A stretch of DNA of 64,000 nucleotides, taken from positions 43,726,990 through 43,790,989 of the forward strand of contig NC_092637.1 in assembly GCF_039555335.1 (NCBI RefSeq), given 5' to 3'. A program made the translations under genes and the position numbers. The notes beneath the pieces are model-generated. The model did no database searches. It was not told where the DNA came from and saw only the letters and a program-made list of their open reading frames with translations. Each line of letters starts with the position of its first letter. Within the stretch, counting starts at the first letter, position 1. This stretch comes from Amphiura filiformis (taxonomy: Eukaryota; Echinodermata; Ophiuroidea; Amphilepidida; Amphiuridae). This document shows, piece by piece, positions 15,362 to 59,957 of the stretch.

Positions 15362-15475
15362 CTATCTCACAGTTGGTCCCTGAGTAGCCTGCTGTACATG
15401 TACATGAGTAGCCATTGATCGCATCTGTACATGTACCACCATTCGAACACGGGTAAGAAGCGCATTCATCGATAT
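15362..15475 (-). CDS. internal exon: calcium-binding-type EGF domain
   Basis: A 114-bp symmetrical exon bounded by CTCCAG (acceptor) and AGGTAAGTA (donor), phase 1 at both ends. It encodes a complete EGF module that begins [14 protein letters not shown] and ends with TNCEI. The DIDEC start and the [10 protein letters not shown] segment are the pattern of calcium-binding EGF domains found in Notch-like, fibrillin-like and other extracellular proteins. Six cysteines are present in normal order. The exon can splice in frame to 16203-16316 upstream. The product would be extracellular, with a structural or adhesion role inferred from the family. The identity of the whole protein is unknown because the 3' end of the gene was not found. 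Confidence 0.85.
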
Positions 15476-16920: not shown

Positions 16921-17719
16921 CGAGAAGTATGATAGTAATCACTGATATTGCTGAATAGAATATATCAATACTTATAGCCCTGTATATCTAATGACGATGC
17001 AATTTAAATTTAATAGACGTTCCATATAGGCCAGTAAAAATCAGCCCCAAAATCTCTAAAGGTCAAAATAATTGCAACATGAATTCTATTTGCAGAAAAT
17101 GCTGCTATTAAGTCTCTATTTTAACATACTCAAAGTCTACCAAAATCAACCTCTGCGAAAGATGTGTAAAATTGACTTTTTCAAAATGGCAGCCAAAATG
17201 GCGTAAAATAATAACAGTTGTGATTTCAATATATATGAGTGTCCACATGGGAATTGGATAACATTTTGAACTACAAATGCTCTTATGCCCTAACCGTTTC
17301 ATAAATATTTATTTGTCTGCGTAGATTTTCAAAAGAGCATCAATCCATCCGTTTTAATTAAAGCTTGTCTTTTTAAGAGAGCCTATACTCTGTCTAATTT
17401 GCAACTCATTTCAATGGCATGCCTATACCCGGGGCATACGTAATACACGTTCATAATGCTATACATTTTAACAGCCTATTCCCTATAAAAAGTCTACTAT
17501 TAAAATCACAGTCATTTAATAATCTGCAAGTAGTCGCTTTTCAACTACATGTATTTATGCGATCGGCAACATAATATGTGCAAGTGAAATCCATTCAACA
17601 ACCACCTCAAGTTTAACACATTTGAATCGCATTAATTAACAAATCGTCGTTCTTTAAGCCCTTGTCTAATTTGTGTTTAGCCCGGTGTTTAGGTAAAAGA
17701 AGCTTATTATTAAACTTAC
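16921..17719 (-). other. intron 1 of the EGF-repeat gene (5' part)
   Basis: The stretch lies between the donor of exon 1 (17719) and the next EGF exon. It contains no additional EGF-like exon and no element I can name. Short open frames here lack any domain. Confidence 0.5.
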
Positions 17720-18071
17720 TTGTTTCACAGTTGACTCCAGTGAAGCCGGTCACACATGTACAGGTGGCGTCTATACAAGTACCTCCATTTTGACACGGGT
17801 TAGCGCATGTATTTTCTTCAGAACTAGATCCAGAACTAGAACTAGAACTAGACCCAGATCCAGATCCATGTCCTTGTCCTTGTCCTTGTCCATGTCCTTG
17901 TCCTTGTCCTTGTCCTTGTCCGTGTCCGTGTCCGTGTCCTTGTCCTTGTCCTTGTCCTTGTCCTTGTCCTTGCCCGTGTCCACGTCCTCGTCCTCGTCCT
18001 CGTCTTTGAGCCATTACGGAAGTAACAGCTGCTAAAAGTAGTAACAAGATTAAAACTCGTGCGTTGTACAT
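17720..18071 (-). CDS. exon 1: secreted Gly-Gln/Gly-His repeat protein with EGF domain
   Basis: The start is placed at the methionine of MYNARVLILLLLLAAVTSV because it begins a clear 21-residue signal peptide (cleavage after VMA). An upstream in-frame Met at 18188 would bury that signal. Residues 22-31 are Arg/Gly-rich. Residues 32-69 are almost strictly alternating Gly with Gln or His. About residues 70-84 are Ser/Gly-rich, and residues 89-116 form a compact EGF domain (CANPCQNGG...GFTGVNCE). The exon ends at A|GTAAGT in phase 1 and fits the phase-1 EGF exons at 16203 and 15362. The product should be secreted. The low-complexity region suggests a flexible, possibly metal-binding or matrix-associated segment, but that is inference. 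Minus-strand TTTACATTTAG at about 18120 could be the acceptor of a 5' UTR intron. I do not recognise the whole protein. Confidence 0.8.
17868..18006. repeat. coding hexanucleotide repeat (Gly-Gln / Gly-His)
   Basis: On the plus strand the units are CTTGTC, CATGTC and CGTGTC, a 6-bp period giving alternating Gly-Gln and Gly-His on the minus strand. The tract produces long open frames in other frames and on both strands (Lys-Asp, Arg-Thr, Ser-Leu), which are shadows. Hexamer tracts change length easily, so alleles probably differ in the number of dipeptides. Confidence 0.85.
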
Positions 18072-18316
18072 TTTCGAAATGCCGTTCTGATTCCTCCAAG
18101 TCAGTTCAATCCTTGACTCTAAATGTAAAACAAAAGAAACATATGTTCTAACAAGCCATCGGAGAACACTATCTCTACCAAAAAACATTGCAAGAATTCT
18201 TCGTGTCTTTATCCTTTTTCAAACTTGGTCCCATTTATGGAAAGCTATATTTTTGAATTATAATCAATATTTTTTCTCCTACTGAAAGTACTCAGCTTCT
18301 TCATTCTTATTTAATA

Positions 18317-28385: not shown

Positions 28386-28457
28386 GTCTGTGTAGCTCAG
28401 TGGTAGAGGGCTCGCCCGACAAGCGAAAGGTCTGGGGTTCAAGTCCCCGCACAGGCA
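28386..28457 (+). tRNA. tRNA-like gene or pseudogene, Val(GAC)-like anticodon
   Basis: The 72 bases fold as a cloverleaf. The acceptor is GTCTGTG/CACAGGC (seven pairs, one G-U). The D arm has the A box TAGCTCAGTGGTAGAGG. The T arm is TGGGG/CCCCG with GGTTCAAGTCC as B box. The anticodon stem CTCGC/GCGAA has four pairs and a first-pair mismatch; its loop CCGACAA puts GAC at the anticodon. Position 33, nearly always U, is C, and D-stem pair 10-25 is G-G. A TTTTTT run about 13 bases downstream could terminate RNA polymerase III. The U33 change and GAC, a rare anticodon for eukaryotic valine tRNAs, suggest a pseudogene or SINE head rather than a working tRNA. Confidence 0.6.
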
Positions 28458-29644: not shown

Positions 29645-30797
29645 AGTAATAATAATAATAACAGCACTTAATATAGCGCTTTTCCAACCTGATCAAAGCA
29701 CTTTGCAAAGATACAAAAAATATCCAAAAACATATAATACCTGAAAAAAGGCTTAAAAACAGCAACAATCAGAACAAGTGAGTTTTAAGGTTACTCTTGA
29801 AACTATCTACAGTGGGGGAAACTCTGATGTTTAAAGGGATATTGTTCCACAGTTTGGGTCCCTGTACACTGAAAGACCTATCACCAATTAATCTGTTGCT
29901 CCTGGGGACAACTAGACGAGTTGCGTCTAACGCCGAGCGTAAACCCTCTCTGGTTGAGATATAGATCGTCAAACAATCAGACAGGTATATTGGTGACAGA
30001 TCATTCAGTGACTTGTAGATGTATAAGAGGATTTTGAACTTGATGCGTTTTTCGATGGGTAGCCAGTGGAGGGAGTCAAGAAGCTCGGATGACGAGTATA
30101 AGCGGCGAGGGACTTGGAATACAATGCGAGCAGCTCTGTTCTGTAAGCGCTGGAGACGAGCAATATCGGTAGACCTGCAACCAGATAGAAGCGCATTAGC
30201 GTAGTCTAATTTGGAGAGAACAAGTGCTCGCATTGCATTGCTACAAGTATCTTGATCGATATAACGACGAATTCTGGATATATTCAAGAGGAAGAAATTC
30301 AAAGATTTACACAAGGAGGTTATGTGAGATGACATGTTCATTGCTATATCAAATGTTACACCCAGGTTTTTGATTGTAGCTGAAGGTGTTATTACAGTAC
30401 TACCAATGCAAATTGTAGTGTTGAGAAGGCGATGCATGTTATTTGGGGATGCAGCTATGAAAAAATCAGTTTTGGAATCATTGAGTTTGAGTTTGTTTTG
30501 TGTCATCCAACAACGTATTTCTTCCACACAGGATGACAGCTTGAACAGAGCACTAGCTGCTTTACCTGGAATACTGGGATTGAATATGAAATACAGTTGA
30601 ATATCATCTGCGTAGAGATGATATCTAATACCATGATTTCGGATTATTGAGGAGACAGGTTGAGCATACATGTACATAGTAAATGCTTTTGGACCAATGA
30701 CCGATCCTTGAGGAACGCCATAATTCAGAACATAAACATCAGATATTGAACCATGTATACTGACATGAAATGTGCGACCGGTCATATATGATTTGAA
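29645..30797 (-). mobile_element. 5'-truncated CR1/L2-like LINE with RT domain
   Basis: The minus-strand frame 29769-30821 (350 codons) encodes the second half of a reverse transcriptase: YGVPQGSVIGP, the catalytic YADDIQLY, NLGVTFD, LDYANALL, LQNRAARIVF and the C-terminus SFKSNLKTHLF. This pattern is typical of CR1/L2/Daphne-type LINEs. The first nine codons (MLVDGVLRF) are not LINE sequence but read out of the neighbouring MITE, so homology starts at about 30797. Fingers, part of the palm and the endonuclease are missing. The 3' UTR ends AAAAGCGCTATATTAAGTGC and then (TTATTA)n, the usual microsatellite tail. The frame has no stops up to the junction, so the insertion may be fairly recent, but the fragment cannot retrotranspose. 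Confidence 0.9.
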
Positions 30798-31895
30798 CCG
30801 TAAAACCCCGTCTACAAGCATATAGTGTTTTTTATGAAAGCTAAATTAATTCGAAGCAAGCGTTAAGGCCAGAGTAATGGAAGACACATTCGTCCACGCC
30901 CGAATTTGAGATTTCTTGATTTTTATCAACACTAAGATGTATTCTTTCACTTGAAACTGATAAAATACAACTTGTTAATATTTACACGTATTTTTGCTTG
31001 ATTTATTTCACTCTTTTCAACTCTAAAAAGTCACATGGCTCAAGACAGCTTAGTAAATTGGCGGGAAATAATGAGTCAGAAATGCGCGAATGCGAAATAT
31101 TGTGATTACTCGCGCGATTCGCGGCGCGTGACGCGGCGCAACTCTGCGCGTATGTCCAACGCAGTCAAGGCGCATTCGGTATGTTTTTAACGCCGGCAAA
31201 TGCGGTGTAAACAAAACACAAATTTGCAGTCAAAATGCCACTTAGATTTTTTAATTATGTTGAATTTTGGCGGACTAAAAGCAGACATTATAAATTCATT
31301 GTTGCAAAAAGATGCATATTAAGACCATGCACCAGGTACAGCTTTTACAAGCGTGAAAGTCTTGCCGTTTTAAAATATAAGGACATTTTGTGCATAATCT
31401 TGACATTTTTTTACTAAAACGTCAATTTCTCATAGTTCACTTTTGACAATATTGCACGATTTTTGTGACAAGATAACTCGACAAATATGCAAGCAAAAGG
31501 TAAACTTTTTGCACTATCGTTTAGAGTACATCAAAGTCTAGGGAAGGTTTTCTCATTTTTTCAAAATATTTGTTTTAAACAAAAATATACACCATTATGT
31601 GCAATTTTTAGCTGAATCTGACGTCACCATGGGATTCCTTGACTCATTTCCTTTCCAAAAATGTATAGTTTTATATACTTTGGAGATACAATTCAGAAAT
31701 AATGATGCTCGAAAAGGTCCATGTTCTCTCCCATTACTCTGCCCTTAATATGCCAATACTAAGATTGGTCTTAAAATAATACTTGTTTGTATATGCTTGG
31801 ATCCGTAACTTACTTGCTCAAACTCCATAATGGCGCCTGGATTAATGAAGCTTTCATCAGAAGCTCTCTATATGCTTATAGACGGGGTTTTACGG
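30798..31895. mobile_element. CCGTAAAACCCC-type MITE, split by a nested element
   Basis: Left end CCGTAAAACCCCGTCTACAA (30798) and right end GACGGGGTTTTACGG (31895) are the termini of the element seen whole at 57684-57902. Outer blocks 30798-30866 and 31745-31895 are collinear with that copy. An 878-bp TTAA-type element is inserted between them. The right flank keeps the TA duplication (31896-31897), but the left flank is the truncated LINE, so the left TA is lost. Confidence 0.85.
30867..31744. mobile_element. 878-bp element nested at TTAA inside a MITE
   Basis: TTAA duplicates at 30863-30866 and 31745-31748. Termini GGCCAGAGTAATGGAAGA and the inverse of TCTCCCATTACTCTGCCC match at most positions. 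The unoccupied copy at 57751-57754 (GCAAGCGTTAATATACC) has a single TTAA at the same place. The interior holds short open frames (for example 31235-31417), none resembling a transposase. A piggyBac-like enzyme acting in trans is the likely mover. Confidence 0.85.
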
Positions 31896-44769: not shown

Positions 44770-46642
44770 ACGATCCCTTGTTGTGTAGATCACCCTCCCG
44801 CACGCCATGTACGTTCTGTGTTATGAACATCGCGGATGCGTTCGATGTTATAATGCAGTATTACTTCGATTTTCACTTGTCATCATTAGCAGAGGAGTGG
44901 AATTTTGATTGAAAGAATTAAACTAGGAAGGTTGGTGTTGGAAGTTATCTAAATGACGAAGAGACCAAGGAGAGCAATCAAATTTGCAAAATGATATTGT
45001 AATATATCCAAATGTGTTTTGTTTTTTCCGTATGATAAAAACATTTATTGTAATTGTTTGATTGAATTACTGCATAGTAAGACTGAATTGCGTGCTAGAA
45101 TTCCACTGTAGGACTATAATGACTGTATAACAACTTTTGACCCCCCTCCTCGTAGACCTACACAGTAAAGGAATCCCACTGTAGGACTATACTGACTGTA
45201 GGACTACTTTTTATGTCACCCCACCGTTTTAGGGCAACAAAATAAAAAATAAAAAACCCTACACCATAGGACTGTACGGTAAAACATGTCTATTAGCAGG
45301 CTACTTTTTAGTAACCCCCACCTTTGTAGGACGACAAATATTAAGGGCGTCCTCCTTTAATGTGCTTATTTCTTACGTTCTGCCCGCTTGCCTGCATATC
45401 ATGTTTTTGGGCGTACGAGTTGCAGCGAGTACGCACCAATTATATTGTCACTTTTGGCCTTTCATGGCGTTTATTATGAGATGAAATTGTGGTCAGATTT
45501 TTTGTAGTTTGAAACGACGCAAGTGATATTGTGCGATGCAGTTCCGATGGAGTATGTGTATACTAATTACTCACTATAACATTAACGATCCATTACATAC
45601 AAGCTAGACACGCACGTACCTCACGGTGATCTTCTGATATAAGTAATAATTATTGGGGATACTAGAATCACTTTTGACCCATACCGGATCTTGCAGAAAT
45701 ATATTATGGTTGGAATCAGCCATTAATGTTTGCACAGTACAATTGCCAGATTTGTGTCAAGGTTTTCTCCCAATTACGGTGTATTGAAACTTCGTTATTT
45801 ATTCTAAATGTAACGTATACTTGTGAAGTCGCGGAGCAATCTTATGATATGCTAATTCTCGCTATTCACAATAAGGGCGCCGCCTGCGGTTTGCGATGTA
45901 ATCGTGATGTATCATGGGAAAAGGTCGACATCCAAGTCCGTGCAATACGAATATTACCATGCTATTACATAGGAACACGTGACAATATTTTTTAGTTTGT
46001 CAAAAAAATAAAGTTGTTACACGCGAATCGATACTTAATAATACTTAATAATGTGATTTGAAATGTGCACAATTAATGTTTTCTCTATCGATTTGCGTGT
46101 AATTTAAATATCGGATGATATAAAGGGTATACAAAACCATCTCATCTTAAATTCGTTGGCCTCTCTTTTTCTAGGACACCCCTATAGCATATTATTACTC
46201 CACCCTTCAGCTAGTCAGCGTTAAGGTTTAGGCGCAGAGATACCCGTATCACAGCTCTTCAGATAGTCGGCTTAGATAGTCCCGGAGACACCCCTATAAT
46301 TAGTATATCATTAAATCACTCCGCCTTTCAACTAATCAGCGTTGAGATTTTCATTTCTGATTACGCCCCGGAGATAGCAGAATAATTAGCATATCATTAG
46401 ATTGCTCCGCGCCTTCACAGGTACCAATGACAGAATAATTCTCGCTATTCACAATAAGGGCGCCGCCAGCGGTTTGCGATGTAATCGTGATGTATCATGG
46501 GAAAATGATATCTCCCTAAACACTGGCTAGTCCTTTTTAAAAATCATACTGCAGTTCCCTAATTTGTTATCTAAATTAACCGTCGAATTCCGTGTGAAAA
46601 ATACCATAATTCGCCTTATTTACTCGGCCCAAATTTGGTCAT
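44770..46642. repeat. non-coding stretch with a 68-bp direct duplication
   Basis: AATTCTCGCTATTCACAATA through GTGATGTATCATGGGAAAA occurs at 45854-45921 and 46437-46505 with one base changed (CGCCTGCGG against CGCCAGCGG). At 45110-45230 the word CCACTGTAGGACTATA occurs twice. No gene is supported. Confidence 0.6.
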
Positions 46643-46787: not shown

Positions 46788-49198
46788 GTTATTCCAATAA
46801 CTATTCTGATAATGTAGCTCTGTCATGCTCTGTTGTACTTTGTCAACTTTTAACTATATCTTAGTACAATACTCACCAACCAAACCCAACACATATTACG
46901 TCATATTAAATGATCAAGTCAAGTCAAAACTCATTTGTGGGGTCACAAAAGTAACATTTTCATTTCTTATATATCCGTATAAACGCGTTCAAGTGCATGA
47001 TTAAAAAAGTGTCAACGTTTCTATTTAGAGTCTATAGGCTGCATTCTTGCTTTATGTCACAAATTTACTATTTCGTGTAGGGCCTACACCGTCTTCTGTA
47101 TGTTTCAATAAAGTCATTTCAATGTAATCATACATTATTATTCGAACATTGTCATTCTTTCCACGTGCTCCCAATACTTATATCACATTGGTAATACCCT
47201 ACATCATCGACAGTTTCCTTTGGTACGCCCATTTCCTTTTTAAAGGAATTTTTATTTATCATGTTTTGATCATGATAGACGTTTAAAAATTTCTATCGTT
47301 TAGGCCTCACTCACTGGACGATGCATGGAAATACGATGATTTGTTTGCATGCCATTTGAAAAGACTGCTTTTAAAATCACTGAAATTGTTATAAGTTATA
47401 AGCCAAAAAAGGGACATTTTGGGTTTTGATGCTTCGAAATGGTAATTTTCTTTCACTATAATGACACTTGATTGAGGAATGTGATGTGGCGATGATTACA
47501 GTAGTACTGTTTACGGATCTATACAACCAGGCAATTGCAAAACCAGTAATACACAGGTGGTACAAATGACGTTTATTTCTCAAAGTAAGCTCTATAGCCT
47601 ATAAATTATTGTAAACAGTAATACAAACTTTTACTTAGGGTCTTTATATCTTTTCAGTTTTGGGAGCTCTATTGTTCAGAAACGAAAACGCAAGGGATTA
47701 TGTGAGTTGATCTGTAATTTGAATTCATTGAAGTACCAATCAGCTTAACATTTCAATAGAGAAAAAGGGCTGCTGCCAATCAAGGCTGGATAAGAAAAGA
47801 ACACACACATTGTTGAATTATAGAACACACACCGGTGTTTTAGGTGGTCTAGCGCCCTCTCTAGCGCCCTCTTTTATGTCCTCTAATACCTATGATAGAC
47901 GTTTGATGTCCATAAAGTGGTGACAAATTGTCAATTCGAATGAAAATGTCCACTTTTTTTCTGTAAAAACGTTGAAACTCAGCGGGATCACAAAATGTTC
48001 ACTTTTAAACCGATCGCACCCCAATAAATCCTGGCTACGGGCCTGTCGCCCTTCCCTCACCAGGGACAAGTGATTTGCGCCGAACTTTTTTTCCGCTCAA
48101 TCTCCGCACAATTGGCTTTTTTTTCTATGTGCGGGATAGGCCCTACATGATTTGCACTGAAAAAAGTACCGCGCAATCTCCGCGCAATTGGCTGTTTTTT
48201 TCCGCGCAAATCACTTGTTCCTGCTCATGACTTTTTGTCTCACTGTAGCAATTTTTGACAAACGCTGTTTTTCCGTTCTCCTCTACGATTTCTCGCTAGC
48301 TACGGTTAGCCATGCCTGGTCTTCTTTTTTTTAAACGTTTTTTTTTCAGGCATAAATGTCGCTGAGTTTGTCGCAATTTAAACCGTCGAACTATTATCAC
48401 TTGACATGTGACGCCATTGCCCGACAGCATGCACGCGAATTATGGCGATTTCCATTGTTCTTTGCCATGCAGTGTGCGTACGCATCGAAAGGCATTGAAC
48501 AGTGTAGCGGTTCGTTCAAGCATATCGATAAACCAGTCCTCGCCTTTGTGATAAGAAATGATGTCAAGTGGAATAAAAGAGAAGAAAGTCTTGTTACCAC
48601 AATAATAATATCAATGTTACCAAGCAATCTATATAATGACACTAAGATTTAACACACGTTTGTTACTTTCGGTCATGTAAATGCAATTATCACTTGACAG
48701 CGCGTTGGCCAAATGTCGGCACCAATTATAATCAATCATATCTAATATATACACGATCTAAACAAATATCACTTAGCAACCAATACCAATTTGGCGCTAG
48801 TTAATATGATTGAAATATGACACCTTTACATTGATTAAGCTAAGCTTCATTGTATCTACGTTGCGGTGAGTTACGTTACCGCATTGCAGTCTCTTCCCAT
48901 TTTAAGTTGCGTTGAGTTGCGGGAGAAAGTGATCGATATATCTGTAACGCAGCGCAGATGCAGTGAAGCATGAACGGACCTTTAGACTTGTTGATTGTGT
49001 GGTGTGGGGGTGTTTATTCGGTAGATATTTGAAGAGTCTATTACAACGCATTAGACTCTCCCAATCTCTTAACAATACACTTACAAATGGGTCACCCGGA
49101 AATGACTAAGAACAACTTTTAAGTTGTTCTTAGTAATTTCCGCCGTTATTTCCGCCGTTAAAACGGCTTAACCAAATTCATACTAAAAAACCACATAC
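46788..49198. other. expected location of missing creatinase 3' exons; none found
   Basis: The creatinase homologue on the minus strand should continue into this interval with exons for the C-terminal half of the enzyme. I searched for the continuation after the SGY position and for the later metal-free active-site glutamates by eye and found none. The open frame at 48356-48652 has no recognised domain. The exons may be too short to see, lie below 46.8 kb, or be deleted. Confidence 0.4.
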
Positions 49199-49930
49199 CC
49201 TGATACAATTGGGAATAGATTGATGCTACATACGAGGGGGTATCAAAAAGTTTTAGAAATTGCCCAGAAGTGAAAGAGCTATATCAATGAAATTTTGTCA
49301 GTGCAATCACTGGTCCTTATGTATACTATGATGCAAAGATGGTCTCATAAGAACGTTTACTTTTTTTACAGGCGCTAGATGTCAGTACCTGCCTATGTTA
49401 CCGCATAACCAGCAAACTGGAGAAAATTGAGGCATGTAGAATGATTAAGTTCCATTTTAAGGGTTACAGTGCCCAAAAAATCTGGGATGAAATAAAAATT
49501 TATTTTCCAAAAAGCAACAGTGACAATATCACAATCACCACCGAAGATAAGTTTCATTTCATCATCGATTTTCTAGGCACTGCAACCCTTCAAATGCAGG
49601 ATCTTAATAACGCTGCTTGCCTCAATTTTCTCAATCTTGCAGTTTATGCGCAGTAACTGGGGCAGCAGGTTATTAGCATCTAGCGTCGCCTGGGAAAAAA
49701 AGTAAACATACTTATGAGACCATGATTTTTGCACCATAGTGTGGATAAGACAAAGACCAGTGATTGCAGGTTGACAAAATTTCATTGATATAGCTCTTTC
49801 ACTTCTGGAGCGATTTCTAAAACTTTTGATGAGCGTCCCCTCGTATGTCCCCAAGTTTGTAATCGTCTCGCCGTCGTGGGATTGTGCCCACCATCTGTAT
49901 TGACGGGTCCCGTCTGAATCCACAACCATG
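49199..49930 (-). pseudogene. creatinase-like exon B, interrupted by a transposon
   Basis: On the minus strand, acceptor TTTTTTTCAG precedes CA TGG TTG TGG ATT CAG, which joins exon A (ending GAT A) in phase. Together they read D-TWLWIQTGPVNTDGGHNP and on to TTARRLQT. The TDGGHNP segment matches the region of Pseudomonas creatinase with catalytic His232. There is one extra T (ACTTGGGG at 49853-49854) and then a 611-bp transposon at a TA. Removing one TA and the element gives GDICSINLFPIVSG, the next conserved block, up to a donor GG|GTATGT at 49199. Creatinase hydrolyses creatine to sarcosine and urea in the cytosol. This copy could not make enzyme without repair of both lesions. The identification is strong because both sides of the insertion match the family in order. 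Confidence 0.85.
49233..49843. mobile_element. mariner-derived head-to-head foldback, TA duplication
   Basis: TA at 49231-49232 and 49844-49845 flanks CGAGGGG termini. Arms of about 290 bp are inverted copies (TCAAAAAGTTTTAGAAAT, GTGAAAGAGCTATATCAATG, AAATTTTGTCA). Both arms reach the start of a transposase-like reading frame: KLEKIEACRMIKFHFKGYSA from the left arm and KIEKIEASSVIKILHLKGCSA from the right. That is the helix-turn-helix start typical of mariner transposases. The element is thus two 5' ends joined head to head, without a catalytic domain. It interrupts the creatinase-like exon. Confidence 0.85.
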
Positions 49931-51417
49931 CTGAAAAAAATTAATATCATTTTCAATGAACTATACAGGGTGGTCCAAAAAGAACTTTACCCAATTTTAA
50001 AGCTTCATATATCAGAGTTCAGAGCAGTTATTCCCAATATTGTTACATATTTTTAATTTATATCTGTCTAAGAATATGTGGTGAAAAAATGAGAGAAAAA
50101 AGCTAAATTAGCAAAATGGCAGCAGTTTTACGTCAATGGGTCGAAAATCTCTTTGTCCACACGTAATTCAATGGGATGTATCCGATTATCAGCATTGCGT
50201 TTAATCCTTACCATTCATGCCACGCGTGTGACCGGATTCCGGTCAACAGTTTGGCAAGATTGCGTAATTGGATCACGTGCGATGCATGGTCTTGCAGTCG
50301 CTGCAAGCTGTATTGTTTTTCATGGCCTAGGAGTGTTATGAGGCATATACACGATTAATTTGATTGATCAATATCAAAGACCCTGGATACAAGAAGAGTG
50401 TATACAAAATCTGCCATTGTGCACTGTACATGTACACACAAACATCAATAGTGATTTTATTTTCCAACCGTCAATAAAGTCATGTCTTGTATTGTAAATT
50501 GCCTTATCTTAACACCTTGAAATCCTGTCTAGAAATCCATGCAGCCACAAAATGTAAGCAAAAATCAAATTCAAAAATCGCACCAGGTGAAATCAATGTA
50601 ATTGTGTAATTGCTACATTAGTTTAATATAAATGTTTATGTTAATTTCGGGTACATTGTGCTCTGATATATTTACCATTCTATCATCATTTTTGAAGTGT
50701 ATAACACAGTTTCATCTCTAGCATGACTAGTGAGGATTAAAATTTTAGATTGTAATTCACTCATGCATGAAAAATTTTGAATGACAATTGATGGTGTTTA
50801 CCAATAAGCATGCCTATCGCAATACTCTTGGTAATCGAATACATCCTAATTTCTTCTAGAGTGCATAGTTCTTATACTTAACGTGCGCAAGTCGCCATGT
50901 TTAGGGGTAATGTATAGCGACCATAAATCATAGTTTCTTTTAGTGACCCGTTTTTGTTAGTTTTTATTTTGTTTTTGTTTTTGTTGTTGTTGTTGTTGTT
51001 GTTGTTGTTTTTTTGATGGGAGTAATCATATCAAACAAAATACCGCAAATTTGATTTTTGCGCAATTACCGCATGTTCTTCAGTGACACTCATTACGTTT
51101 TGTTACCTGGAGAGATTTGATCATATGTCTCACCTCCTTTTTCAACCAAATCGACGGTATTAAGTCTTGTAGTGAGGGATCAACATTTAACCACAAATTG
51201 TCTCAGGCAAAACTCGCTTCCTGAAACCAAATACCACAAAAGGTCATTTTTATGTAATTCATTGACCCATGTGTGCCATATACTGCCTCTAGCTATAATG
51301 ACAGCCTGGTGATCTGTCAACTTATTGACAGATACAACCTCAGGAGGGCATTGAATTTGTGATCAATTCTCTTCAGGTAGTAAAACGTAATGCTGGGTCT
51401 GATGTAACTGTACTTAC
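49931..51417 (-). other. intron of the creatinase-like gene
   Basis: The interval is bounded on the minus strand by donor ATAGTAAGTA (51418/51417) and acceptor TTTTTTTCAG (49931). Within it, TATACAGGGTGGTCCAAAAA at 49962 resembles the terminus of another Tc1/mariner-type element. A (TTG)n run lies at 50986-51009. No further exon was recognised. Confidence 0.6.
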
Positions 51418-52032
51418 TATCTCTAAACTCGCTATTAGGATGCTTCCTTTCGATTTCTTCATTCATCTTGCCAATGGCATAGTCTCTCACCACATATTCT
51501 GGCACTCCTTCATCCATCGCTTCTAGAACTGCTGCACCTCCTACTTCCGCAATAGCAGCAATAGACTTTATCAACGCAATCTCTTCATCAGTCTTACGAA
51601 TTCGCTTCAACATAATCGGCTCTGCAATATCCACAATATCTCGATCAGGAACAGATACTTTAAACTTCTTCATGTTATCAACTGACATGGTATCAAACTC
51701 GCAGGCGACTTTACCACGACTTGAAGCAAGTTCCTGAGCTACTGCTCGCCAGAAGTTGTCTTTGTGCCAGTCGGTGTATACTACATTGTCGCAGATATGA
51801 GCGCGACGCCATGGATATGGCCCCAATCGGCAAGAGCAGATATTGTGGTGACTTTGTCCATTGTGACGGCTAAGCCATACGGGCGTCCCATACTGAGGTG
51901 GAGGAAATCTGAATAGTAGTTGATGTTATGGTACGACGTGAACAGGACACCTTCTATATCATTGGTTTTCATGTAATCGCGAAGTGTTGCCAGACGGTTT
52001 TTCATCTCTTGATTGGAGAACGTCGGCTCAAT
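51418..52032 (-). pseudogene. creatinase-like exon A (N-terminal half), frameshifted
   Basis: A 615-bp exon on the minus strand between acceptor CCCTTAG and donor GATA|GTAAGTA. It reads IEPTFSNQEMKNRLATLRDY, then GVLFTSYHNINYYSDFLHLS and MGRPYGLAV. After a frameshift it continues PWRRAHICDNVVYTDWHKDN and later AAIAEVGGAAVLEAMDEGVP and EYVVRDYAI. Each block matches Pseudomonas creatinase in order. The Arg64 counterpart (GRPY) is kept, while Phe62 is Met. The frame break lies at 51811-51818, where CCATATCCATGG seems to contain an extra AT. The M24 peptidase-like fold of creatinase lies mostly in the part not found here. Either the gene is dead or the reference has an error. The 5' exon, probably coding only 10-20 residues, was not found. 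Confidence 0.87.
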
Positions 52033-52770
52033 CTAAGGGTTAACAAACAATGTGTTGTATTCATGAAAAGCAAGAAATCAAACCCAAAAAATATTTTTGC
52101 CGATATATTCTTCAATATTTTACTAAGTTTCCAGCATGTGTATCCTTTTCACCTAGTCTCAGACCTAGATGTAAACACAGAGGCTATTTTAACATGCCTA
52201 CTTCCGTACATCAATGTATTGATATACTTTTTATTTCAAATATCTTATTTTTTTGTAATCAAATCAATTTTTTACCATGTAAAAGTTACTTTTTTGGTGA
52301 AAAGTGAGCAAAATCATTAAAATAATGCATTTCCCTCAAAATATTGCGTCAAGATATAACGATACATTTTTTGTTAACCAATATTGAAAATACATGTGAG
52401 TTGTATTCTCAACAGCAAATATAAAATTCATACTTAATTAATGTCACAGTTATAGCTGTTTTAATATTTTGGAAAAAAAAAAAGTAAAAAACACACCAAA
52501 AACTGCACTTTTCAACCCTAATATCTCAGCTCACGTCACTTTTCAGAAATGCCGGCCGGGTTCAACAGGAAGATGAGACTCTAATGGCACATTTGTCTAA
52601 AAATGATGCAAGAAAATCTTAACCTAATAAGTAGATATGGCCTCTCTACTATTGCAAGTACGTGCAGTGACACAAAAAAAATCCCTGCAGAGGAACCAGA
52701 AATCTGTACTTAAAATTACTAAATGAACAGGAAATTAAAGACATTCCTCCACAAATGGCGTCACTCATGG
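52033..52770. other. upstream of the creatinase-like exon; no exon found
   Basis: An AT-rich stretch in which the first exon or promoter of the creatinase-like gene could lie. I see no in-frame methionine followed by a matching donor. Plus-strand open frames at 51928-52320 have no recognised domain and overlap the exon antisense. Confidence 0.4.
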
Positions 52771-52773
52771 GGA

Positions 52774-53150
52774 AAGCTTCGGGACGGGGTTGTAGTGGTG
52801 GTGGCCCCGGACACCAACTCCATCTACCTGGCAGACATTGCCCATAATTGTGAGGACACGGTGGATCGGTGGACTAATAATCTGATAACTTGCTCGACGT
52901 GCGTGGGTTCGAGTCCCAATCCCACCGCCGTGTTGCGCCCTTAGGAGAGGCGGTTTGCTTCGCTTGCCTCGCCCCACCAGGTGCAATGGGAAGCTGTTAG
53001 GGGTACTAGTCACAGTTGTTGTGATGAAAAACCCTGCGCTATTTGTAGGCAGCAAGCGTGGTTCCGACATATTCTAATGACGGAGGAATAAATGTAAATC
53101 GCTTTGAGACTGTTTACGGCATTAAGCGCTATATAAATAGCTACCATAAT
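52774..53150 (+). mobile_element. SINE with tRNA-like head and L2-like tail
   Basis: The head contains GGATCGGTGGACTAAT (A-box-like) and GTGGGTTCGAGTCCCA (B box) within GGTGG...CCACC pairing, at about 52858-52927. A central domain follows (GCTTGCCTCGCCCCACCAGG, GTTAGGGGTACTAGTCAC). The 3' end TTAAGCGCTATATAAATAGC resembles the tail of the LINE at 29645-30797 (AAGCGCTATATTAAGTGC). A shared tail is how SINEs borrow the LINE enzyme. The sequence before 52858 may be part of the element or flank. Confidence 0.75.
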
Positions 53151-53159
53151 TTTTATTCA

Positions 53160-54527
53160 TTTTTTTTACCTTGCGTATCTTCCTTTAAAGGTCGTTTATA
53201 AACACCTTGATTTTGGATTCATTAATTCGATTAAGACCGAGGTCTTAATTCAGAGCTAAAGAGTACAGGTATTGGTTGCTTGTTTTAATTTTGACATATT
53301 TGTCTTTGTTATATACAGGGGTGAACATAACTAGCGCCTTAATTCGTTTGCGCACTGTATATAGATATTAATTCATAAACAACGTGTTTATGAACTTTTC
53401 CGAATTATATATAATTTACCGGAATCTATTAAGCAACATATCAATTTGTAAGCGCTCTTTATCAAATTCATAGTTCATTTACTTTACAACCGTATGACAA
53501 AACAGGCGAAAAATATTAACATTTTTTGGCCACTGCTCATTCTAATGACGCTAGTATACATGGACAATAAGTGTGCTCTTTCATTTAATGACATAAAATT
53601 TGAAAAATATTGTAAAGAACACTTGAGGTTTTGACTTTTAAAGACTACAAAAAAAAAAAAATCGTGCTTGGAAAGGTCGTTCTCAACAGATTTTAATACC
53701 ATATTCGCTTTGCTATAAACATTGAATTGCGTTATCTGTTGGTTGACCTAGTGAAAAAGTGTTTTTAGGGAAAGTGTTAGCTTTCGTTCGATATAAAAAA
53801 ATTCTAACTGGATAAAGGGAACACTTGAGGTTTTGAGAAAAACCAATCACAGAGGCCTATTTTTCAGCTAGAATCTCACACAGCTCTATGATGCTATGCA
53901 CTCAACGTGTAGTGTAATGAAAGACTGTGTTGAGACAATTCACTGCTAGCTTGGACAAAATTGTGTGCTCAGGTGTATCGAGATGGAAACTGTGCATAGA
54001 TGGTTTATAAGAGAATCCTTTTGTAACCAAACCTTTCCATATGCGTCGTGAAAATTATTATCTCATTTTGAAACTGTTATTTTGAACCATTTTGTGCAAC
54101 TGGGGTGAGCTACAGCTAGGTAAAATATGACAATTCAAATGGATCAACATTTAAAGGAAGAACTACCCTTAAAAATCCCATTTAACATTTTTTCTTCTGA
54201 TTAAAAATTTTACAGATTAAAAGATTATACTTTTATGAAATTGTAAGCACCTGTGTGCACTTTTTGCATCGTGTACTTTCATAGAGCTACAGTTATAGGT
54301 AAAAATGACGACAATTCAGTTATTAAATGGACTGACATTTTGAAGGAAAGCCTACCCTTCTAAATAAATCCAATTATCATTTTCTTTTGTCATTAATATT
54401 TTTTCAGAGATTATACTTTTTTGTATTATGAAAAACATTTTAAAGCATGACACCGCTTAACTTGGTATAAGTGAAACAGGTGTGTTCTTTCAACGAGTTG
54501 TAGTCGATTCATATGCACTTTCAAAGT
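53160..54527. other. non-coding stretch
   Basis: 53230-53360 is a decayed copy of the repeat at 6300-6430 (AGGTCTTAATTCAGAGCTAA, TTTGACATATTTGTCTTTGT). GAACACTTGAGGTTTTGA occurs at 53617 and 53819. No gene is supported. Confidence 0.45.
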
Positions 54528-55744
54528 CTATACAGTTAGCAGCCTGGACAACCGATTCTTTAGAAATGCTTAGTCGCGCTGAAAGTCGATCGATACATGT
54601 TAAAATCAGCACAATTCAGAGATACACCTTTTGCTATGAAATTAATTTTCTCGGTCAAATATAAAGCAATATTTTTTTTCCTTCAGTAATGTCAGTTAAA
54701 AACTTGGTGCTTGGATATACATTTTTTTTACAAATCCTGGTGTTAAAATTAAGCATCAAATTGTGTCTTTATTGTGATATTTTTGATTTTTATAGGCCTT
54801 CAGTTCGCAAGCGAGCTTTTTAAGGAATTCATTTTTAGCGTCTCAAACTAATATAGTTTGCTAAAGAAAGATATTTCCCACCTCTGTAAAGCACATCGTG
54901 TGGGTCTATATATTATAGTTTTGTTAGAATTTCCGTTTTTATTTTACCCTTTTTCCCTTCATACTCGGAAATGTCTAACTCAGTACTTTTATCTCGAGAG
55001 CAACCAACAGAAATAGTCGATATTTCCTTTGTTGTTTATTCAGGTCAATTTTCCATTGAAAGCAAATTGCCCGACCAGCGATTTGGTAGCCCAAATCCCC
55101 AATTGAGTGTTCTGGTTAAACATGATCAGTAGGAGCGCTATAGGCCTGGGAATTTCTTTGCTATATTGAAGTTCTAGCAACACTGTAGCCATGCCGGTAT
55201 TCCTATTAAACCCAGGGATATCGATCCACAATGCTAGTATTAGCCTTAGATTTCACTCGTTGATTTAGAAAAATGGTCAGCCGGCAGTTAAAATAGTGAA
55301 ATGAAAACGCAAATTCTGACAAAACTATGATATATCGCTCACGGTGATGTGCGTTAGAAAGTTGGGAAAAATCCTTCATTAGCGAACTATCTTACTTTGA
55401 AAAGCTAAAAGGTTGATCCAAAAAAAGGCTCGCGGACAGAGTTTAAGCCTATCAAAATCGAAAAGCTTACACTAAATGACTAAATTTCACGCCTAAGTTT
55501 AACACTAGAATTTGAAAAAAAATACAGTATCAAGCACTACAATTTTTCCTGACATTTACTGAAAAAATGAAAATGATTGCTTTTCATTTGGCCGAGAAAA
55601 TTAATTTTACATCGAAAAGGAAGGTGTAACTAAAAATTTAGCTCATTTCAACACCAAATTCGATCGTTTGTATTGCCTCATTAAATGACTGAGTGAGCCT
55701 TGCCAAACAAAAGAATCGGTTGTGCAGGCTGCTAACTGTATAGT
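54528..55744. mobile_element. 1.2-kb transposon with imperfect inverted termini
   Basis: CTATACAGTTAGCAGCCTG at 54528 and its inverse ending CTGTATAG at 55744 mark the ends. The similarity continues through ACAACCGATTCTTT and, further in, AATTAATTTTCTCGG.CAAAT. The central 800 bp lacks a long open frame. A shorter copy lies inverted at 24300-25045. Target duplication and superfamily are unresolved. Confidence 0.7.
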
Positions 55745-56566
55745 TGAATAAGTCACATCGCAAATGGTTTATTATTTGCAGTATTCTTAATCGTTTGACC
55801 AATCGTGTCAAATATTCTTAGAAACCATTGTCCTTATGATGGTACAGACTTTACACAGACCGCACGGGGTAAATACTATTTGGGGTGTGTCGGGAGATGG
55901 TTTTAAGTTTACATTATGGCGCACATAATGTATATAAATGTAGTGGGGGTAAAATTTCTGAATTTGAGAAACATTAATCTGATATTATCAAATTTATGGC
56001 GATATTTACTGAACTTAAATATCAATTAAGTGTTCGTCAGAACTGAAATGTACTTGTAATCTACCAGTTTTTAAAAGCAATATGCCTCTGAAAAGTGGTT
56101 CGCACTCAGAAAGTTTGCATGGCTAAATGTTATAAACTTACTGTACACAAAAAAAGAAACAGCGTGAGTTCATTGGACAACCAAGAATCCGCGCAGTTGT
56201 TTTGTACCGTAAGTTTATAACATTTGACCTCGGGGGGCAAATTTCTGAGTACGTATTACTTTTTAAGAGCAATATTTTAAGCTCCTATATCAGCTGCGAT
56301 GAATGCCAATTGTTGACGAAATTTAGGAAATATCACCTTCAAATCCGTATAAATTTGATAATAACCGAACAATTGTGTCCCCACAAAGTTCAAATTCAGC
56401 CTCCATAATCATAAATTTCCCATCAAACAATTATTTCACACCATCTTCCTACACAGCCCAATTAATATTTAGCCCAGTGCTGTTTATGCAGACCCTTTCC
56501 AGTCTTGAAATTTTGCGAAAAAATATTCCATACTAAAATGTCAAGTCTATAAATGAAGTTGACGTA
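55745..56566. other. non-coding stretch
   Basis: No repeat boundaries, RNA genes or convincing exons. The plus-strand frame 56202-56408 shows no domain. Confidence 0.4.
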
Positions 56567-58295
56567 CTAGGGTCATTCAAAAAGTTCTACCTCCATCATC
56601 ACATCTCTCATATCTTTCGTTCCAGGCAATTGAAATTACCCATGATTAAATTAAACTATTAAATTTAGACTGAAAAATAAAAGTTATTTGATTAAGATGT
56701 GAATGAAAATTACTTTTTGGTTAAAGCGAATACAGATTTGGTACATCGCACGGTTGTTTGATGGCATGTAAAACCGAGTCATTTTTAAGAAAAGTTGAAC
56801 AATGATGGCGCTATTTATCAAAATCTTGCTTGCATCTTTTCAAGGGGTAGACATTTGTAAAATGTTATTAGAACATCAGCAAAGAGACTAAGAAATGACA
56901 AGGGAATTTTCAAAAAACTTTTTACCATGAAATGTAAGGTATAAATCATATTATTTGGCTAATTTAAATTTAAAATATATGTAAAAAGCGCCCTCAATTT
57001 GGACACGAATGTGCATTTTATAGAATTAAAATTACCACAAAAAAGCAGAAAAAGATGAATAATTTGATATAGAAATGAAAATTTATGTTCAAGATTGCAA
57101 CAAATTATATGTGTACATACAGTTTATTGGTGTGATAGCTGTTGGTATTTATTCAGGTCTAGAATTGAGCATTATAATAATGGTTTTTTTTAAATAGTAA
57201 AACATCAAACAACCGTGATCGGAAACTGTTAAAAACTGAGGCCAAAAGTTTAGTAAGCAATAGCATCATATTGTAGCTTTGGATAATGTCTATAAATTTT
57301 TTTTTTAAGATGCGGTTGTCCAACTGCTTACTCATGATAAATATTTTGGTCCTATTTGAGCTCCAAGACATGCCTTAGGACTTCAAAACAAAATGAAACA
57401 TGGTTTATATGAGAAGAAAACATCAAAGGGTTCAACAGACACACAAATGTCAGTGAAATTTACTAGCTTTTGACTAGACCACGTTTAGTGGCAATTGTAA
57501 ATTATGTCCTTTTTTAAGCAATTGATGCATCTTGACGCGGAAATAATATAAACAGTTTGGAAATAAGTATAATATACTTTCAAAATACAAAAACTGTGCA
57601 TACGACTTTCTTGATTTTAACTTATGAAACAGTTAATATGACTTGAACCAACAAGTGCTCAACCGACCGAAGTCAGCAACCTACCGTAAAACCCCGTTTA
57701 CAAGCATATATAGTGTTTTTTATAAAAGCATAATTAATTCGAAGCAAGCGTTAATATACCAATACAATAAATCGGTCTTAAAATAATACTTGTTTGTATA
57801 TGCTTGGATCCGTAATTTATTTGCTCAAACTCCATAATGGCGAATGGATTAATGTAGCTTTCATCAGAAGCACAATATATGCTTGTAGACGGGTTTTTAC
57901 GGTATAGAAAGGGGTCGATATGGAGGCTATTCTGAACATGCGTAAGTTTTTGTGTGCAAAAGACCCGATCGTAAAACTGTTCTATCTGCAAGCATTAGAT
58001 ATTAATTAATTAATTAAATTATTTCAATAAAAATGAAGCAATAATTATGTAATGACTTCCACATAGATGTTGGAAACCTTTTTAAAATTAGCTTTTCTTT
58101 TCAGACCGTTTCTGACGTACCAAATCTGTATACTCACTTCATCCAGCACATCTTAACCAAAAATCACATTTAATCACAAAAAACTTTTATTTTGTAGCCA
58201 AGATTTAAGAGTATAACCATGGGTAATTTCAATATCCGGGCATGAAATATTACAGAGATGTGGTGATGGAAGTAGAACTTTTTGAATGATCCTCG
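56567..58295. mobile_element. mariner-like element with about 80-bp termini, decayed
   Basis: TA at 56565-56566 and 58296-58297. Ends CTAGGGTCATTCAAAAAGTT and CGAGGATCATTCAAAAAGTT (inverted) share about 80 bp, ending in AATTGAAATTACCCATG. The size, about 1.5 kb after removing a nested 219-bp MITE, suits a mariner-type element. No transposase frame survives. A segment at 56740-56860 is also found inverted at 10240-10345. Confidence 0.75.
57684..57902. mobile_element. 219-bp MITE with CCGTAAAACCCCG termini, intact
   Basis: TA on both sides (57682-57683, 57903-57904). CCGTAAAACCCCGTTTACAA on the left and the inverse of CTTGTAGACGGGTTTTTACGG on the right. It sits inside the mariner-like element at 56567-58295 and is the unsplit reference for the copy at 30798-31895. 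The TTAA at 57751-57754 is the unoccupied target of the nested element there. Confidence 0.9.
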
Positions 58296-58297
58296 TA

Positions 58298-59640
58298 GAC
58301 TTTTCAATACAGTATATTTATTTTTCTTGTCTCAGTTTTGATGTGCCCTGAGTAATTTGATTTAATTTAATTATTTAACTTTGTTTACAACCTGAAAGTA
58401 TTTCATGAGATGGGAAAGCCCCTTGTAATTGCAAGATAATGGTGTGGAAAGTCATTTTTGGAATTTCCCCAAATTATTGTAAACAAAGTCAGAGCTATGT
58501 TTGGAACTTGGAAATCCCCAGTTCAGTATTGCACCAACAGAAAAAAAAAACAGGAAGTGATGTAATGTGAAAGGTGAATGTGTATAATTAATCTTGGAAA
58601 ATCCTAAGATTGCAGCAATGTTGTGAAAATGTGATTGAAGTAATGGGTTATTAATAGATGATGGGTTTTTTGCATGAGTACTGATATAAAAGCGTGAGGC
58701 TTTTGTTTGGACTTTACAGAATGCCATGGGAGATTGAGAAACTCCACATGTGTGTGATGGTCTTCATGCTTCAAAAAAGAAGTACATTTTAACCAGTTTA
58801 TATAGCCAATAATTGAGCTAATTTTAATACAGCAACGAAGGAGATTGCGAGCATACAAAAGTGCTCTTCCTCATCAAAGGATTAAAGTTCTTCTGTCGAA
58901 TTGCTGGGTTTGTGAAGGCCACACTTCTATCAAAGAACAGCGGAGCTGTGTTAAAGAAACCTGTTCCCTGGAAAAAGAGTGATTGGTGAAAGAAACACCA
59001 TTTTTGGAGAAAGCAGCGCAAAGAGATATATTGCGGAGAAAGCAGCGCAAGAAGACAAGTAATAGGAGCAAGCAGCATCATTTTCGTGTGAGGATTTCAT
59101 ACGCAAGGATATTTATAAACGCAAGTGTACACTGGACTTCGCTGATTTTCGCAGGACAAGTGAATAAGGATATATTACATCAGTCGTCCAGAACATTAAC
59201 ATTGCAAGAATTCTAGGATCACCAACAAGAAGACCGCTGGTTAAGTACTGATAGAATAAAACTGTAATTGTGTGATTTTATTGTATTGCAATATTGTTGT
59301 TACATGTACCAAGCATACTTTGTTTTCAATTAAAGACTTAGATTTTGTTAGCGTAATCAAACAGTGTATTTGTGTTGTGCATTCGTGTGAGTTCGGGTAA
59401 AAGGTGATTTTGGCCTTGAGTCAAGTGCGACTCGTAACACAGTTTTCTACAATAATGTTAGAATTGTATATGTCCATGACTATATATCTTGTGACTATAT
59501 TTAGAATCATCATGAAAAATGCATTAAAATGAGTACAAACAAGCATTACTTCAGTGATTCTTGAGATAGCTCTTGATATTGCGAGAAAATATCTCAATTT
59601 TTTTTCTGATCCAATAAATGTCTGCTACATGCATGAATAC
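58298..59640. other. non-coding stretch with a short tandem motif
   Basis: GGAGAAAGCAGCGCAA is repeated at about 59007 and 59035. Open frames at 58452-59216 on both strands lack recognised domains. A weak case could be made for a retroposed transcript around 58860-59340, which is purine-rich and ends with AATTAAAGACTTAG. Confidence 0.4.
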
Positions 59641-59650
59641 TCGTACTCAC

Positions 59651-59957
59651 CTTCTGACCATTCTTAATTTTGGTCAAATGTGCCATTGCTGTTGATTCAT
59701 TACTGTATTGTCTTGCAGCATTTGCAGTAAAACAGTGGTCTGCTATTCTTCTAAATTCTCGTAGGCCAACATGTAGATTATTTACACGACCTAAAGCCTT
59801 CAAGAAAGGCATCATTTCAGGAGCAGATATATCGAGAGATTTTTTTACAAAAATGTAGAGTGACACTATTACCAATGATATTAGACTTGTGAATGATATG
59901 AGGCTTGTGAAATTCAACAGCTCATGAAGAGAAAGCAACCTTCTACCACGTTGTCTG
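59651..59957 (-). CDS. possible exon of an unrecognised gene
   Basis: The minus strand is open from about 59957 to a good donor (GTCAGAAG|GTGAGTACG at 59650). It reads QRGRRLLSLHELLNF, a hydrophobic run (SLISLVIVSLYIFV) and then PFLKALGRVNNLHVGLREF up to HLTKIKNGQK. The composition after the hydrophobic run looks like a real protein. The acceptor, a CAG just beside the MITE edge at 59968, is weak. I recognise no family. It could be an exon of a gene upstream of the creatinase-like locus or chance. Confidence 0.3.

Follow-up and report, generated by a model that had tools for sequence, protein, structure and literature searches.

An intron-split relic of a creatinase gene, probably disabled, in an animal genome

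The window analysed here, a 64-kb stretch of DNA, carries on its minus strand a homologue of creatinase. This had been claimed by the initial annotation, and the peptides quoted there are indeed present on that strand. The parts of the gene that could be recovered are, in the direction of transcription:

59651..59815, minus strand: exon 1, 55 codons, with a phase 0 end at a GTGAGT donor
52033..59650, minus strand: intron 1, 7,618 bp, GTGAGT...TTAG, phase 0
51418..52032, minus strand: exon 2, encoding the N-terminal domain of creatinase as far as VGGAAV..EFRD (tblastn, phmmer, Pfam)
49931..51417, minus strand: intron 2, 1,487 bp, GTAAGT...TTTCAG
49846..49930, minus strand: exon 3, first part, W-L-W-I-Q-T-G-P-V-N-T-D-G-G-H-N-P..., with the His232-equivalent included
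49231..49845, no strand assigned: inserted element, a near-palindrome of 615 bp including both flanking TA copies
49199..49230, minus strand: exon 3, second part, CSINLFPIVS(G), after which comes a GTATGT donor at 49198

Exon 1 lies upstream, 7.6 kb from exon 2 and outside the interval that had been annotated. Its last 12 residues (MAHLTKIKNGQK) align to the N-terminus of bacterial creatinase, and its first 43 form a presequence-like extension. The phase 0 end of the exon abuts the start of exon 2 to give NGQK/IEPTFS, which runs without gaps against bacterial NGEK-VKHTFS. A splice-point profile was built from the nine columns preceding this junction in 87 bacterial rows, all of which (87/87) have N-G at the splice-point position. 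Applied to GT sites with an open frame before them (1,963 on the minus strand and 2,111 on the plus strand), the profile ranked the donor at 59650 first with 19.1; the runner-up among the 4,074 sites on both strands reached 10.5, and that among the 82 GTRAG sites -3.3. In addition, the window has a single N-G-[EQ]-K with GTRAG directly after it, a pattern that turned up in none of 60 simulated sequences. A plain hmmsearch taken by itself did not detect exon 1 significantly (E 16), and our call is based on position, phase and profile combined.

Exon 2 is similar to bacterial creatinases in two frames (best tblastn E 5.9e-48) and is not one open frame, with a frame change located between approximately 51826 and 51814. 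An open frame of 134 codons and of such composition arose in 0 of 4,000 simulated stretches. When both frames were searched against the PDB with phmmer, the creatinases 1chm, 7yto and 1kp0 were the only matches at E <=0.001, with E 6.9e-20 to 2e-12 for one frame and 1.1e-24 to 2.2e-21 for the other. The first frame scores 27.3 bits against Pfam Creatinase_N, for which the cut-off is 22 bits, and the second scores 17.6 bits, below that value. The intron that follows (51417-49931, with GTAAGT and CAG ends) has a phase that restores D-T-W, exactly as had been read from the letters. Just inside it is a smaller inverted repeat pair (51091-51123/51360-51392; 33-nt arms, 88% complementary), which may be another short element.

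The first part of exon 3 was recovered with seven tblastn queries (E 0.005 to 4.8e-6), and its 26-residue piece by hmmsearch (E 7.8e-5); a second frame change is found near 49857. The exon is then split by the inserted element, which aligns to its own reverse complement with 75% identity over 651 alignment columns (self blastn) and has inverted arms flanked by TA on either side. Joining the flanks over the element yields GDI/CSINLFPIVS, in gapless register with bacterial GDILSLNCFPMI, and reading through the element stretch uninterrupted meets 8 to 19 stops across the three frames. The element may be a mariner-like MITE, a type marked by terminal inverted repeats, a TA target duplication and no coding capacity; no further copy of the 615-bp sequence was found within the 64-kb window. 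The second part of exon 3 (14 residues) scores only E 1.4 to 2 in hmmsearch when taken alone, and was accepted because of its collinearity and frame, despite this weak score.

Beyond this point the gene could not be followed. For the last ~140 residues, which we take to hold Glu262, Arg335 and Glu358 and with them most of the catalytic site, the best tblastn match in the window had E 0.61 and the best hmmsearch match E 8.2, both on the wrong strand, and the 49 kb downstream returned chance-level matches only. The window thus shows neither the C-terminal catalytic residues nor the pita-bread half of a creatinase. Small C-terminal exons could have been missed, since exons shorter than ~25 residues may escape detection, as the score of the 14-residue piece of exon 3 illustrates. 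An intron longer than 49 kb is another possible explanation for the absent C-terminus.

Given the frame changes, the insertion in exon 3 and the lack of detectable C-terminal exons, we consider it likely that the locus is an unprocessed pseudogene or a disabled allele of a host-encoded creatinase. The continuous open coding sequence of a creatinase is missing here, being broken by the 615-bp insertion and by one frame change each in exon 2 and exon 3. The initial annotation, which had overlooked both frame changes, the element and the lack of detectable C-terminal exons, proposed a gene that would let the animal degrade creatine directly; with two frame changes, the insertion and an undetected C-terminal third, this proposal finds no support at the locus. 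Past activity of the protein, its transfer from bacteria and its loss in the animal, as opposed to the loss of one allele or one duplicate, would all go a step further than the disabled state itself.

A working host creatinase could look like this if assembly or base errors had misrepresented it, or if the window had captured a heterozygous insertion allele with the other haplotype intact. In other respects exon 1 and the two exon 2 frames are open and show good conservation, the splice sites are intact, and frame changes of one to two bases are common assembly errors. However, this explanation needs several independent faults at once, namely two frame changes, a 615-bp TA-flanked insertion and no detectable C-terminal exons in the 49 kb downstream, and we regard it as quite improbable in comparison with a pseudogene or disabled allele.

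The family to which the gene belongs was established by comparing its peptide with 87 creatinases and six other M24 proteins, which together with the window peptide make up a set of 94. All 87 bacterial creatinases were matched (87/87; E 6.4e-87 to 2.5e-60, identity 39.0-52.9%), whereas of the six other M24 proteins one gave no match and five had E values from 1.1e-5 to 2.2; even the top scorer of these six trails the creatinases by at least 55 orders of magnitude. In the tree, the creatinases and the window peptide fall on one side of a branch supported at 100/100. Best matches to aminopeptidase P, which would have spoken against a creatinase, were looked for, and it is the creatinases that score best; the assignment to creatinase and not to aminopeptidase P or another M24 family is therefore borne out by both scores and tree. 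A gene of another M24 family (aminopeptidase P, prolidase or ectoine hydrolase) would share the N-terminal Pfam domain, which is common to creatinase and other M24 families, and NCBIfam did return weak matches to the ectoine hydrolase DoeA (E 0.00095 and 0.034) and to PepQ (E 0.0054); all of these lie far below their cut-offs, and the lead of at least 55 orders of magnitude and the 100/100 grouping with creatinases leave this reading a very slight probability. Other M24 families were accordingly rejected as candidates.

The residues expected of a creatinase are present in the part that was recovered. The Arg of MGRPYG occupies the invariant column R50 of alignment A1 and represents the N-terminal substrate-binding Arg, presumably Arg64 in P. 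putida numbering, and the His of NTDGGHNP occupies the invariant column H221 of the same alignment and represents the catalytic His, which we take to be His232 in P. putida numbering. The window gene belongs to the same sequence family as bacterial creatinase (creatine amidinohydrolase, EC 3.5.3.3; 1chm, 7yto, 1kp0), and both have N-terminal TSYHNINYYSDFL, PWRR, YTDW and NTDG-[AG]-HNP. Unlike the bacterial enzyme, the window gene is split by introns, has a 43-residue N-terminal extension, broken frames and an insertion, and lacks a detectable C-terminal third.

The gene retains 32 of the 36 positions conserved in at least 99% of bacterial rows (89%; lowest bacterial leave-one-out value 95%), 54 of the 64 conserved in at least 95% (84%; lowest 92%) and 66 of the 83 conserved in at least 90% (80%; lowest 86%). 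Because conserved positions have been kept although overall identity is only ~50%, the comparison points to a gene that was long under constraint as a working protein. Retention below that of every bacterial row implies, in turn, that some of the divergence may reflect decay or altered function.

The gene had also been described as resident in the host genome. This is well supported by the GT-AG introns, which keep the register of the protein, by the palindromic insertion, and by the EGF-like and reverse-transcriptase sequences in the window; introns and flanks are A+T-rich, with 34-36% GC. Bacterial contamination or a chimeric assembly, which the ~50% identity to bacterial enzymes might suggest, is contradicted by two canonically bounded introns that preserve the protein register, by the A+T-rich introns and flanks, by EGF-like and LINE-type sequences within the window and by the lack of a close bacterial match (best 53% among the matches listed), and its probability is negligible. 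Contamination was thus rejected on the introns and the surroundings.

Several other features were observed in the window. Two EGF-like stretches lie on the minus strand at 15369-15449 and 17727-17795; the second, within 17616-18218, is preceded by a long G/Q/H repeat and a signal-like start (EGF PF00008, E 7.5e-5). The reverse transcriptase of a retroelement occupies 29772-30845 on the minus strand (RVT_1, E 2.9e-12). On the plus strand, a tRNA-like gene at 28386-28457, scoring 53.5 bits against Rfam tRNA and called Val (gac) by ARAGORN with the bacterial code, is either a gene or the head of a SINE. In the stretch 45818-46505 there are a 79-nt direct repeat (45844-45922 and 46427-46505; 94%) and an inverted pair with 40-nt arms (93%).

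As for the origin of this host gene, transfer from bacteria is plausible, as had been suggested, and we infer it with due caution. The top-scoring relatives among the matches listed are the creatinases of Halomonas, Oceanimonas, Marinobacterium, Pseudomonas and Thauera (L008-L018), with 50-53% identity over ~240 residues; these enzymes are intact, intronless and devoid of a presequence, in contrast to the window gene. None of them is supported as donor by the tree. Two trees, of 94 and 88 rows, give the window gene no supported place within the creatinases; in the former, saturation affects the outgroup branches (length 10), and the latter has no outgroup and was rooted at its midpoint. The end branch of the window gene is long (2.1 changes per column), and no bacterial subgroup is a supported partner for it. 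The 80 genome loci compared are the best 80 of at least 588 confirmed relatives, picked by their likeness to the window, and hence form an uneven sample. A genome scan with the second frame of exon 2 alone returned 33 pattern matches, and a scan of viral_contigs 41, in both cases with no relative among them. On two bacterial plasmids, creatininase genes adjoin the creatinase genes (L003 379-1155; L004 2751-3405).

The alternative to transfer concerns the origin and not the identity of the locus: the gene could descend from an ancient eukaryotic creatinase inherited vertically. In its favour is the long window branch, which falls in no supported bacterial subgroup. The relatives found were, on the contrary, all bacterial, which says little given that the search covered non-eukaryotic collections. 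We regard vertical inheritance as rather unlikely, though it carries appreciable weight.

The exon 1 frame has its first ATG 43 codons ahead of the bacterial-like start. Within the first 38 residues of the resulting extension there are five Arg and one Lys against two acidic residues; the helical moment is 0.39, and an R-Q-Y-S motif is present. Mitochondrial matrix presequences are basic, amphipathic and N-terminal, and have an Arg-rule cleavage motif; judging from these features, the first 43 residues appear to resemble such a targeting presequence. Under criteria that were picked only once the sequence had been seen, a helical moment of 0.39 was reached by three of the 125 ATG-led frames in the window (exon 1 frame counted), as many Arg with as few acids by five, and the latter plus an R-x-[YFL]-[SA] motif by a single one, the exon 1 frame itself; its net charge is ordinary, being reached by 41 of the 125. 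An internal ATG with good context is a possible bacterial-like start, and its use would leave no presequence. Because the criteria were chosen post hoc and this internal start is available, mitochondrial targeting is put forward here with reserve.

The ancestral protein probably had an N-terminal mitochondrial presequence; if so, the enzyme would have worked in the matrix, converting creatine and H2O into sarcosine and urea. Sarcosine dehydrogenase oxidises sarcosine to glycine, and the sarcosine so produced could have been oxidised by it in the same way. We tentatively propose a scenario, to which we give somewhat less than an even chance, in which an animal lineage took up a bacterial creatinase, added introns and a presequence, and ran a direct mitochondrial route from creatine to sarcosine and urea and on to glycine; intact copies may persist in the genome or in relatives, the window copy having been lost.

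According to textbooks of biochemistry, animals lose creatine as it turns into creatinine without an enzyme. A host-encoded creatinase, if true, would drain the creatine pool enzymatically, yielding urea and sarcosine, and its mitochondrial presequence, if true, would place this enzyme beside sarcosine oxidation; the discovery of exon 1 turns localisation into a testable claim. The relic of the gene is real and unexpected, and the initial annotation was right on the family and on the intron; its broken state is, at the same time, a warning against inferring function from the locus. Automatic annotations may name creatinase-like genes in invertebrates. In the portions of the openly licensed literature covered by our search no report of an animal creatinase gene was found, which is no proof of absence from the wider literature.

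The only report found of creatinase activity in an animal homogenate, within the portions covered, concerns the nematode Teladorsagia circumcincta, whose homogenates showed creatine amidinohydrolase activity (PMC3655251, in the extracts consulted). That activity stands without an identified gene, since, according to the same extracts, neither C. elegans nor the other nematode sequences of that time yielded the authors a homologue (PMC3655251); its rate is stated per hour in the abstract and per minute in the results section. In excerpts of a study of Yarrowia on beetle carcasses, there were no creatinase transcripts. Among echinoderms, creatine itself was measured in sea urchin gonads, as given in the available part of PMC13028831.
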